Shown here one piece after another: positions 51,561 to 55,563 of a stretch of DNA of 64,000 nucleotides. Position 1 is the stretch's first letter. Each line of letters opens with the position of its first letter. The position numbers and the translations under genes were made by a program. A model generated the notes under the pieces. The model was given only the letters and a program-made list of their open reading frames with translations. It was not told the origin of the DNA and did no database searches. The stretch lies in assembly GCF_001889605.1 (NCBI RefSeq), contig NZ_CP018171.1:1364001-1428000 (forward strand). The letters run 5' to 3'. This DNA comes from Aquibium oceanicum (GTDB lineage Bacteria; Pseudomonadota; Alphaproteobacteria; Rhizobiales; Rhizobiaceae).

Positions 51561-54044
51561 TCAGCCGGCGATCCTGGAAAAATCCGCCACCTGGCCAGTG
51601 ACGGTTCGGATGCCGGTCAAGAGTGCCAGCCGGTTGGCCCGGATCTTCTCGTCCGGATCGTTCACCAGCACGGTATCGAAGAAGGTGTCGATCGGCCCGC
51701 GCAGCCGTGCCATGGCGCGCATCGCGGCCGAAAAATCCTCGGCCCGGATCGCGTCGCCCGCCTCTTCGCCGGCCTGACCGATCGCTTCGAACAACCGCTG
51801 CTCCTCGGGCGCCACCAGAAGCGCGGGATCGACGGCCGGCGCGATCTCCGTCCCCCTCTTCTCCTCCGCCGCGATGATGTTCACCGCGCGCTTGGTTCCC
51901 GCAAGCAGGTTCTTTCCGTCTTCGGTATCGAGGAGGTCCCCAAGCGCCTTAACGCGCCGCACGATCATTAGGAGATCGTCGTTCGAGGCGGCGGCTGAGG
52001 CCTGCGATTGGCTGGTATCCCCCCTCCCGGGGGAGATGCCCGGGAGGGCAGATGGGGGCGCCTGGCGCGATCCTGCTTCATACCCCTCGACGACAGCAGC
52101 CCCGCCGCTCACCAGCACCGCATCGATCAGATCGTGCCGCGCGCCCTGATCGCGAAGATAAACTTTCAGGCGGTCGTGGAAGAAGGAGAGGAGATCTAGC
52201 GCGTATGTCTCCAGTACGCCTTGACCTTCAACGTGGCGCACAGCCTTCTGCAGCGGCGGTCGGGTTGTCGGATTGGCAATTATCGACTGGCTCAATTCGA
52301 GCAGGTTCAATCTTACGCCGTTCTCCACCAGGATCCGGATCACCCCTAGCGCCGCGCGCCGCAGCGCGTACGGATCCTTGCTCCCCGTGGGTTTCTCGTC
52401 GATCGACCAGAACCCAACCAACGTGTCGAGCTTGTCTGCCAGCGCGACCGCCATCGAGGCGGGGTCGGCCGGCACGGTGTCGGATGGACCCTGCGGACGG
52501 TAGTGTTCCTCGATCGCGGCGGCGACGCTCGGGTCTTCGCCCTGAAGCTCCGCATACTTGCGGCCCATGGCGCCCTGCAACTCCGGAAATTCGCCCACGA
52601 CCTCGGTCTGCAGATCGGCCTTGGCGAGGATCGCGGCGCGGCGGGCGAGGGCGGGATCGGCGCCGACCATCGGGGCGATTTCCTCCGCCAGTCGTGCGAT
52701 GCGCTCGACGCGCTCGCCCTGCGTGCCGAGCTTGGCGTGGAACGTCACGCCGAGATGATCCAGCCGTGCCATGCGCTGGTCGAGCGGCTTCTCGAGGTCC
52801 AGCCCGAACTTCTTCGCCGACTCCGTCAGCTGCCCGAGGTCGGGAAGGTCGGACTGATCGGTCTTCCAGAAATACAGCGCATCCGAAAGCCGCGCCCGCA
52901 CCACCTTGCCGTTGCCTCGAGCGATCTCGGCTCCGCCGTCCGTCGCTTCGATGTTGGCGGTCAGGATGAAGCGGTTTGAGAGTGCGTCCTTCGAGGCCGG
53001 CTTCGCCGGCACCTCAGGATGAGGGCTTACGGTGGCAGGATCCGCGCCATCGTGCGTGGAAGGCCCGGGATGAAGGACGCCCGCACCATGGTCCTCATCC
53101 TGAGGCGCCGGCGAAGCCGGCCTCGAAGGACGCACCACAAAGCACTTCTGGTTGGCCCGGATCGTCAGCCGCACCACTTCCGGCGGGATCGCGAGATATT
53201 CCTCCTCGAATTCGCCCATCAGCACCACGGGCCATTCGACCAGTCCCGAAACCTCTTCCAGCAGCCCCTCGTCCTCGACGAGTTCCAGTCCGCTGGCGAA
53301 GGCGAGATTGCGGGCGTCTTCGAGGATGATGCTCTTGCGGCGTTCGCCGTCGAGCACAACCTTGGCCGCCTCCAGCTTGGAGACGTAGTCGTCGAAGCGG
53401 CGCACGGTGATCGCGTCAGGGGCGTGGAAGCGGTGGCCGTAGGTGACGTTGCCGGAGCAGATGCCGTCGACGGTGAAGTCGACCACCACCGGCTCCTCCG
53501 TCTCCGGCCCGAAAGTGCAGACGATCGATTGCAGCGGCCGCACCCAGCGCAGCGTCTCGCCGCCCTTGGCCTCGTCGCCGTAGAAGCGCGTCCCTTTTGG
53601 CGCCGACGCGCGGCCCCAGCGCATCGACTTCGGCCAGGGAAAGTTCCGGATGACGCCCGGCATCAGACCGGCGATGATCTCCTCCGTCGCGCGGCCCGGC
53701 CGCTCGACGACCGCGACGTAAAAATCTCCCTTCTTCGGGTCGGTCTGGACTGTCAGCTGGTCGGTCGAGGAAAGCCCCGCCTTGCGCAGGAAGCCCTGCA
53801 CCGCCTGTTCGGGCGCTTTCACCGGCGGCCCCTTGATCTCTTCGCGCACGTCCTTCGAGCGCGCGGTCAGACCGCGCAGGTCGAGCGCCAGCCGGCGCGG
53901 CGTCCAGTATTCGCGCGCCGCCTCGTAGGTCAGGCCCGCCTCCACCAGCCCGTCGGTGACCAGCTTCCTCAGGTCGCCCGCCGCCTTGCGCTGCATGCGG
54001 GCTGGAATTTCCTCGGACCGGAGTTCGAGCAGGAGGTCGGGCAT
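51561..54044 (-). CDS. glyS: glycyl-tRNA synthetase beta subunit with two in-frame inserts
   Basis: An 827-residue tRNA-binding subunit of the alpha2-beta2 glycyl-tRNA synthetase, longer than usual. The core is intact: [18 protein letters not shown] start, [40 protein letters not shown], and the C-terminal anticodon-binding region ([20 protein letters not shown]). Two palindromic DNA repeats have inserted in frame. The first adds about 50 residues ([18 protein letters not shown] through [12 protein letters not shown]) between NQKCFVV and NRFILTAN. The second adds about 25-30 ([20 protein letters not shown] region) before DDLLMIV. The frame stays open, so the enzyme is probably functional with surface loops. 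Confidence 0.96.
51999..52075. repeat. second palindromic repeat inserted in glyS
   Basis: CCCTCCCGGG (52022-52031) and CCCGGGAGGG (52039-52048) are perfect inverted arms in a repeat with the layout TTGGCTGG...GGGAGATG...GGCAGATGGGGG common between genes in Mesorhizobium and relatives. Here it lies inside glyS and adds a Gly/Ser/Pro-rich segment. The ends of the element are approximate. Confidence 0.75.
52984..53133. repeat. 150-bp palindromic element inserted in glyS
   Basis: Arms of 41 bp (52984-53024 and 53093-53133) are inverted repeats with one mismatch; the outer bases are GCGTCCTTCGAGGCCGGC. The inner 68 bp are less symmetric. The total is exactly 50 codons, so the glyS frame continues. 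On the minus strand it encodes a Pro/Ser/His-rich segment. This is the plan of Rickettsia RPE-type elements found inside genes, but the sequence family is of the rhizobial intergenic palindromic kind. Confidence 0.9.
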
Positions 54045-54061: not shown

Positions 54062-54433
54062 TCAGGCCGGTTGGATGAAGGCCAGGGTGGCACCCGCCGG
54101 GTCGTCGAGAACCGCGATGCGTCCGAAGCCGGGCACGTCGAAGGGCGCCCGGCGCACATGCGCGCCGTTCGCCTTCGCCGCTTCGCAGCGCGCGTCGATG
54201 TCGTCAACGGCGAAATAGGTCAGCCAGAATTCCTGTGCGCCGTCGAACATCGGCGAGGTGTAGGTGAAGATGCCGCCCGCAAGTGCATCGCCCGAGCGCG
54301 CGAGGATGTAGGTCTGGCCGTCGCCGGTCGGCACTTCCTGGAACGTCCAGCCTAGCACGTCGCCGTAGAAGGCCTTCGCATCCTCCGGGTTCCAGGTGTT
54401 CAATTCGTTGAAGTAGACCGTTCCGCCGGGCAT
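54062..54433 (-). CDS. VOC/glyoxalase-family protein
   Basis: A 123-residue protein of the vicinal-oxygen-chelate fold, two beta-alpha-beta-beta-beta units: [20 protein letters not shown] and GWTFQEVP in the first, [20 protein letters not shown], and then [18 protein letters not shown]. The usual metal ligands are not complete, so it may bind a small molecule rather than act as glyoxalase. It sits between glyQ and glyS and overlaps glyQ by ATGA, so it is made together with the synthetase; why is not known. Confidence 0.88.
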
Positions 54434-55386
54434 CAAACCGCCTCCGCCATCGCTCCGCTCGCTTCCGTCCTCAGAAACGCCTCGCCGCAGGCTTTCGCGA
54501 GGTTGCGCACCCGCAGGATATAACTCTGCCGCTCCGTCACCGAGATGACGCCGCGCGCGTCGAGCAGGTTGAAGGCATGGCTCGCCTTGATGCACTGGTC
54601 GTAGGCGGGAAACACCATTCTGTGAAGGCCGCGATCGACGTTGTCGGCAGGCGCCCCGGCATCGAGCAGCGCCTTGCATTCCTTCTCGGCATCCTCGAAA
54701 TGCCGGAACAGGATCGCGGTGTCGGCATGCTCGAAATTGTGCCTGGAATACTCCTGCTCGGCCTGGAGGAAGACGTCGCCGTAGCTCACGCGGTCTGCGC
54801 CTTCGCCGCCGTTGAAGTTCAGGTCGTAGACGTTGTCGACGCCCTGCACGTACATGGCCAGCCGCTCCAGCCCATAAGTGAGTTCGCCCGAAACCGGGGC
54901 GCATTCGATGCCGCAGACCTGCTGGAAATAGGTAAATTGCGACACTTCCATGCCGTCGCACCAGCATTCCCAGCCGAGCCCCCAGGCGCCGAGAGTCGGG
55001 CTTTCCCAGTCGTCCTCCACGAAGCGGATGTCGTGGCGCAGCGCGTCGATTCCGATCGCCTCCAAGGAGCCGAGATAGAGCTCCTGGAGATTGGGCGGGT
55101 TCGGCTTCAGGATCACCTGGTACTGGTAGTAGTGCTGGAGCCGGTTCGGGTTCTCGCCGTAGCGGCCGTCCTTCGGGCGCCGCGAGGGCTGCACGTAGGC
55201 CGCCCTCCAGGGGCGCGGCCCCAGCGCCCTGAGCGTTGTGGCCGGATGGAACGTGCCGGCACCCACCTCCATGTCGTAGGGCTGCAGCACCACGCAGCCG
55301 TAGCGGGACCAATAATTGTGCAGCGTCAGGATCAGATCCTGGAAGGATCGGGTCGGGCGCAGCTCTGCTGAAAGATTGGCGTTCAA
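54433..55386 (-). CDS. glyQ: glycyl-tRNA synthetase alpha subunit
   Basis: A ~317-residue catalytic subunit that charges tRNA-Gly with glycine. Typical blocks: [74 protein letters not shown] and [21 protein letters not shown] chose TTG at 55386 with GGGAAG upstream because it matches the family length; an ATG at 55485 would add 33 atypical residues. The C-terminus ends a little beyond the usual end. It is the first gene of glyQ-VOC-glyS. Confidence 0.95.
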
Positions 55387-55563
55387 GAGGGGCTTCCCGG
55401 CGGTCGAATGCGGCGAGCACGTCGTAGAGACGCGCGGGTGATAGGTCAAGGATCGAGGCGGCGTCGCGAGAATGCTGGAACGCACGAGCCCGCTGTACTA
55501 TTTGTGGAGGACAGAGGCCGCTTCGCGGCCGCCGCCGTAACCACTCGGATCAGAGGACACTTC

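Follow-up and report, generated by a model that had tools for sequence, protein, structure and literature searches.

The window analyzed here, a stretch of 64,000 nucleotides on a 5.16-Mb contig of Aquibium oceanicum, carries the gene for the beta subunit of glycyl-tRNA synthetase (glyS), the coding sequence of which holds a long palindromic element and a second in-frame insert. The features of the locus are as follows.

51561-54044, minus strand: glyS, the host gene, glycyl-tRNA synthetase beta subunit, 827 aa (ORF; TIGR00211 at 698 bits, PF02092 at 575 bits).
52982-53135, no strand assigned: palindromic element of family A at site S293, a head-to-head dimer of a REP-like unit, GlyS residues ~304-354 (inverted repeat, shuffles and fold).
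52982-53024, no strand assigned: arm 1, 43 bp, a REP-like unit with the outer end GTGCGTCC and its CGTC tag (inverted repeat; related units elsewhere in the genome).
53025-53092, no strand assigned: centre of the family A element, 68 bp, between the arms.
53093-53135, no strand assigned: arm 2, 43 bp, the inverted copy of arm 1 with one mismatch, outer end GGACGCAC (inverted repeat).
51984-52112, minus strand: second in-frame insert, at site S568, with a family B remnant (52002-52058), residues ~645-687 (alignment; small inverted repeat 52017-52031/52039-52053).
52197-52307, minus strand: site S529, hypervariable and mostly non-palindromic, used as an internal contrast, residues 580-616 (alignment and shuffles).

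A small ORF (54062-54433) between a glyQ-like ORF (54433-55485) and glyS looked VOC/glyoxalase-like by eye.

The family A element in glyS is 154 bp long, in frame and stop-free, and its arms match at 42 of 43 positions (98% complementary). An earlier note on this DNA had correctly described the open frame, the 68-bp centre and the single mismatch, while its arm length of 41 bp and total of 150 bp have to be extended to 43 and 154 bp. The 63-codon segment containing the element gave a palindrome score of 85, with none of 20 shuffles exceeding 24, and the predicted RNA fold of the element (-126.5 kcal/mol, z = -12.9) was equaled by none of 200 shuffles. A single 43-bp arm also folds alone, as an imperfect hairpin closed by a loop of 3 nt. 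The terminal CGTC tag was read by eye on both outer ends, and the glyS copy is a head-to-head dimer with the tags pointing outward. The search for glyS gave a single gene in this genome, the second match being the antisense of the palindrome, and the insert-bearing gene was therefore taken as the working copy.

The aligned segment at S293 measures 63 aa in A. oceanicum and 21 aa in 46 of 83 GlyS rows, and the empty site is represented by a 23-aa segment in two genus mates, G001 and G002 (CFVTRPHGAAPEGGLANRF in G001). The element thus displaces ~10 loop residues, and the net gain of GlyS over its relatives is ~40-42 residues, rather than the 50 added codons that had been claimed. In rhizobia with a type C insert at S293 (see below), both flanks are retained around the insert (TRPQG..LSNRF). 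No target-site duplication was visible by eye at the family A site in glyS.

The arm-end pattern was found at six loci of the A. oceanicum genome, glyS included, and a reversed control pattern at none; the presence of five further loci disposes of the possibility, raised in the earlier note, that the arm might be absent elsewhere. Together with the single glyS, these repeated arm ends uphold the view that a repeated palindrome serves as extra coding sequence in the only copy of the gene. By this pattern, the dimer is confined to glyS and the other five loci are single units. One unit is read in frame within the C-terminal UvrB tail, past the UVR motif (L006, G000:C1:3735639-3735684); one copy is inside an ORF without family assignment; and three seem to be intergenic from the reading of ORFs. 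Family A head-to-head dimers also occur in relatives, in which both 15-bp outer ends were identical in five of the six copies fetched and the second end was missing in one. The centres of the five printed dimers differed from the 68-bp centre and from each other in both length and sequence, as judged by eye. A search for the RAYT-type Y1 transposase family PF01797 yielded no matches in the A. oceanicum genome, and the same search was positive in 5 of 14 control genomes. That the element is "mobile", as had been stated, is suggested by its pattern of presence and absence.

We aligned 83 GlyS rows, made up of the best 80 out of 582 loci that were confirmed, a biased sample, plus five genomes, minus L033 (treated as a duplicate of the L038 genome) and L036 (a partial gene), both dropped before counting. 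A segment counted as an insert when it exceeded the common length at its site by 8 aa or more, and an insert was called palindromic when its score exceeded those of all 20 shuffles. GlyS length ranged from 704 to 944 aa. Inserts were present in 13 rows at S293, 10 at S406, 15 at S568 and 56 at S529, and were palindromic in 11, 7 and 11 rows at S293, S406 and S568, respectively (29 of 38 in total), versus 4 of 56 at S529. The nine inserts at S293, S406 and S568 that failed to beat the shuffles include that of A. oceanicum at S568. At S529, the segment between NGVRL and DLLSFFHDR spans 22-110 aa with very different sequences among species, and this low palindromic share despite such a span rules out that all variable regions of GlyS are repeats. 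Equally ruled out is a reading of the S293 segment as conserved protein sequence common to the relatives, which the earlier note had named as a possible refutation, because 70 of the 83 rows lack an insert of at least 8 aa there. As a control, the matched span of AlaS was 861-864 aa as compared with 706-944 aa for GlyS in the same 20 genomes, a non-random draw with one control gene.

Short-word BLAST clustering of the 38 inserts at S293, S406 and S568 was useless, since 37 of them were linked through shared flanks, and families A-F were therefore told apart by eye in the printed DNA. Six repeat types were recognized in this way at S293 across species, five palindromic and one a half-repeat: type A in A. 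oceanicum, type B (ATCTCCCC..GGGGAGAT) in three rows, type C (HLPLEGGG) in four, type D in two, type E in one, and type F, a half-repeat of the CTGTCGAAGGA type with a non-palindromic score, in one. Types C and D share sequence parts and may be one family. The insert of L116 at S293 contained no recognizable repeat. On a GlyS tree built without the insert columns, the minimum numbers of changes, gains and losses pooled, were 11 at S293, 7 at S406 and 9 at S568; the rows labeled with a family for this tree include some that did not exceed the shuffles, namely L035 and L112 at S406, L049 at S293, and L042, L044, L074 and A. oceanicum at S568.

The second insert of A. oceanicum GlyS (~51984-52112), a degenerate, palindrome-derived one, had been overlooked in the earlier note. 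Its palindrome score of 16 is below the shuffle maximum of 24, and it is a decayed family B palindrome. In Aquibium sp. ELW1220 (G004, L038), the B pattern had four matches, all in frame: a pair in glyS and single ones in ileS and in the gene for pyruvate dehydrogenase E2; a third glyS copy, at S568, was too long for the DNA pattern. Twelve more genomes were scanned, 10 of them picked for B in glyS and 2 without it, and gave 27 places, one of which (in G001) was dropped as not B. Among the resulting 30 places in ELW1220 and the 12 genomes, some of them partial, 17 were in frame in recognized genes (glyS 7, E2 5, ileS 3 and the UvrD/PcrA helicase gene 2) and 13 were elsewhere. Gene identities were established by NCBIfam for one or two copies per gene and by reading for the others. 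For 8 of the 13 other places, Pfam searches of the spanning frames detected domains in two, with the element outside the domains; the remaining five contain N runs and were judged by eye. Several B palindromes of the Mesorhizobium escarrei assembly (G009: L142, L152, L160 and L163) have N runs within them. Because palindromes may break the assembly, the B copy counts are possibly lower bounds.

A peptide query, which is blind to phase, was run against an even sample of 61 genomes from the family, with no genus contributing more than one. Six genomes had B matches (E <= 1e-6) at 10 distinct places: S568 of glyS (4), UvrD/PcrA at the Mesorhizobium site (2), CbiG (1), a helix-turn-helix protein (1) and unassigned (2). 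The CbiG copy is in frame between CbiG_N and CbiG_C of a cobalamin-synthesis fusion protein (L166:908-2938, plus strand), and another, also in frame, follows the helix-turn-helix domains of a protein without assignment. The A. oceanicum genome itself gave zero B matches at E 1e-6 in this search. The B inserts in ileS at L158 and L150 comprise two in Jiella, and their sites match those of the Aquibium genomes by eye.

All 28 in-gene B copies with locatable ends enter with an ATC or ATT codon and have a length of 3n+2, with 2-6 of the six frames open at these copies. The ileS copy of L150, the S568 remnant of A. oceanicum and the S568 half copy of L074, in which the outer motif is missing or degraded, were left out of this scoring. 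The effective number is far smaller than 28, as the B copies occupy about six sites, many of them orthologous, and do not represent 28 independent events. The locked phase would fit either selection for a harmless peptide, rich in P, G, E and S as opposed to the R-, C- and W-rich products of the other frames, or phase-specific insertion.

Substitution rates were compared in 12 overlapping pairs of our own choosing, in which the copies at one site are not necessarily orthologous. In all 12 pairs, the insert had a lower dS than the host gene (e.g., 0.093 vs. 0.643) and a higher dN/dS, and in 11 of the 12 its dN was below its dS. The higher dN/dS and the lower dS suggested a weakly constrained peptide encoded by unusually similar DNA. 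The low dS could result from recent insertion of the repeat, from conversion between the arms or from selection on the palindrome; constraint on the palindrome would be unexpected if the peptide were purely neutral.

The proposal to map the insert on a structural model was followed with AlphaFold2, using an alignment of 37 sequences (L116 and L087 being among those left out). The family A insert mapped to a low-pLDDT turn between two strands: residues 307-357 were predicted to form neither helix nor strand and are bounded by strands 301-306 and 358-363, and the blocks within 311-350 had a mean pLDDT of 33-44. The second insert (648-686) had a pLDDT of <50 and was placed between two helices. 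The model overall reached a mean pLDDT of 72 and a pTM of 0.54, and the GlyRS fold was borne out by a Foldseek search of the PDB (9a71, 7lu4 and 7yse).

Taken together, these data favor, with a probability of roughly 0.7, the interpretation that a REP-like palindrome dimer entered a disordered loop of GlyS, that copies in frame were kept, and that the essential gene shelters the element as a tolerated spacer. Under this interpretation, a head-to-head dimer would have moved into the turn of a surface beta-hairpin of GlyS. Palindromic elements would strike many sites, with almost all strikes in genes being lost, and would persist in a small number of disordered loops in housekeeping proteins, provided that their length and phase preserve the frame and that the peptide, rich in P, G, E and S, is harmless. 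Since imprecise deletion from an essential gene would be lethal, such a loop would retain its element for long periods, and an occupied loop could be refilled or overwritten by other palindrome families. The peptide is predicted to be translated as a tolerated, unstructured spacer with no catalytic role, and its effect to be neutral or slightly costly. Long paired stems are described as deletion-prone in PMC3733652, and the persistence of a 43-bp stem in glyS would fit shelter by an essential gene.

Simple tolerance does not readily account for the extent to which inserts concentrate in a few genes across genera, and other explanations have to be weighed against the sheltered spacer. The very stable fold (z = -12.9) and the reduced insert dS in all 12 pairs would also be expected if the palindrome were selected as RNA, the 43-bp stem in glyS mRNA slowing ribosomes or being cut by RNase III and thereby tuning the supply of GlyS. 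We consider this unlikely, because the majority of rows have no insert at each of S293, S406 and S568, the position, family and sequence of the elements vary, and the S568 palindrome of the same glyS has decayed (16 vs. a shuffle maximum of 24). A similarly low likelihood is given to transposition by an enzyme that recognizes sites in few genes and inserts palindromes in a fixed phase. Identical sites in different genera, the phase fixed in 28 of 28 B copies and the ileS sites common to Aquibium and Jiella (by eye) speak for such an enzyme, but one site hosts different families, 13 of 30 B places are outside recognized genes, and the search for an enzyme, limited to PF01797, provided no candidate.

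A selected function of the added peptide, such as partner binding or solubility, is less probable still; it is favored by an insert dN smaller than dS in 11 of the 12 pairs, yet dN/dS is higher for the insert than for the gene in every pair, six peptide types occur at S293, and the insert is predicted to be disordered. Finally, the element might be absent from mature GlyS through ribosome bypass or removal of the segment. The strong hairpin is all that speaks for this, with nothing direct, and the open frame and locked phase of all scored in-gene B copies would then be needless, which makes it highly improbable. A more speculative generalization is one that we hold to be possible but rather doubtful: coding sequence would be the main long-term niche of these palindromes of Hyphomicrobiales, with a small set of essential or housekeeping genes (glyS, ileS, E2 and UvrD/PcrA) offering docking loops shared by different repeat families and the repeats being phase-locked, stop-free modules kept palindromic by selection or by arm-to-arm conversion.

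Coding palindromes and REPs inside genes have been published before (PMC3733652; PMC2229807). The RPE of Rickettsia are described in the Delihas review (PMC2229807) as coding palindromes of 105-146 bp that lie in frame in genes for conserved proteins and add a peptide. The likeness to RPE drawn in the earlier note holds for this class, defined by repeated palindromes of ~100-150 bp, the family A element being 154 bp long, in frame, stop-free and missing from most relatives. By description, family A resembles RPE in size, palindromic structure and in-frame position in a conserved gene; it differs in that the RPE hosts are Rickettsia and that here several families share the loops of one gene. 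The assumption that such palindromes are otherwise intergenic does not survive, since Di Nocera et al. (2013, PMC3733652) reported intragenic GTAG and CGTC REPs, some of them in tRNA synthetase genes of other species, and equated RPE-4 and RPE-6 with CGTC REPs. According to the same paper, CGTC REPs have stems of 8-9 bp, loops of 4-5 and a CCA tail, and mostly form head-to-head dimers with conserved spacers as a rule of thumb. Family A shares with them the CGTC tag, the outward orientation of the tags, an alphaproteobacterial host, the lack of a dedicated transposase and the occurrence of intragenic copies, also in synthetase genes, but its 43-bp unit, with an imperfect stem and a 3-nt loop, is longer and departs from their stem, loop and CCA-tail definition, and its dimer spacers vary. 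From REP/REPIN sequences mobilized by RAYT it is set apart by the result for PF01797 in the A. oceanicum genome. ERIC/RU-1 of enterobacteria and the 107-bp Correia element of Neisseria are, as described in the part of PMC2229807 consulted, small non-autonomous repeats fused in frame in genes, and are similar in this respect; their hosts are unrelated, and no multi-family hotspot is described for them there.

Neither glyS nor Mesorhizobium is mentioned in the main text of PMC3733652, and no report of glyS hotspots in these bacteria was found in an open-access library, most subscription papers and supplements being outside the scope of that search. What stands out here is the repeated use of three glyS loops by several families, the recurrence of these families in few other housekeeping genes, and the locked phase. 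Six repeat types in one loop of an essential enzyme occur in free-living soil bacteria, outside the obligate intracellular Rickettsia in which coding palindromes were first described, and make the question of whether such repeats are tolerated or shape the protein testable by means of near-relatives with and without each insert.

These data also carry a warning for annotation, in that much of the length variation of GlyS in this group is repeat-derived. Rfam matches on the hairpin (52967-53149) were all below the gathering score, namely MIR4374, MIR1437 and MIR918 on both strands, MIR904, MIR3454, mir-3127 and mir-4847 on one strand, and snaR-A, SNORD67 and the Caulobacter sRNA CC3664, and were rejected because a long GC-rich hairpin gives such matches. 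The microRNA matches nevertheless had small E-values and could mislead automatic annotation.
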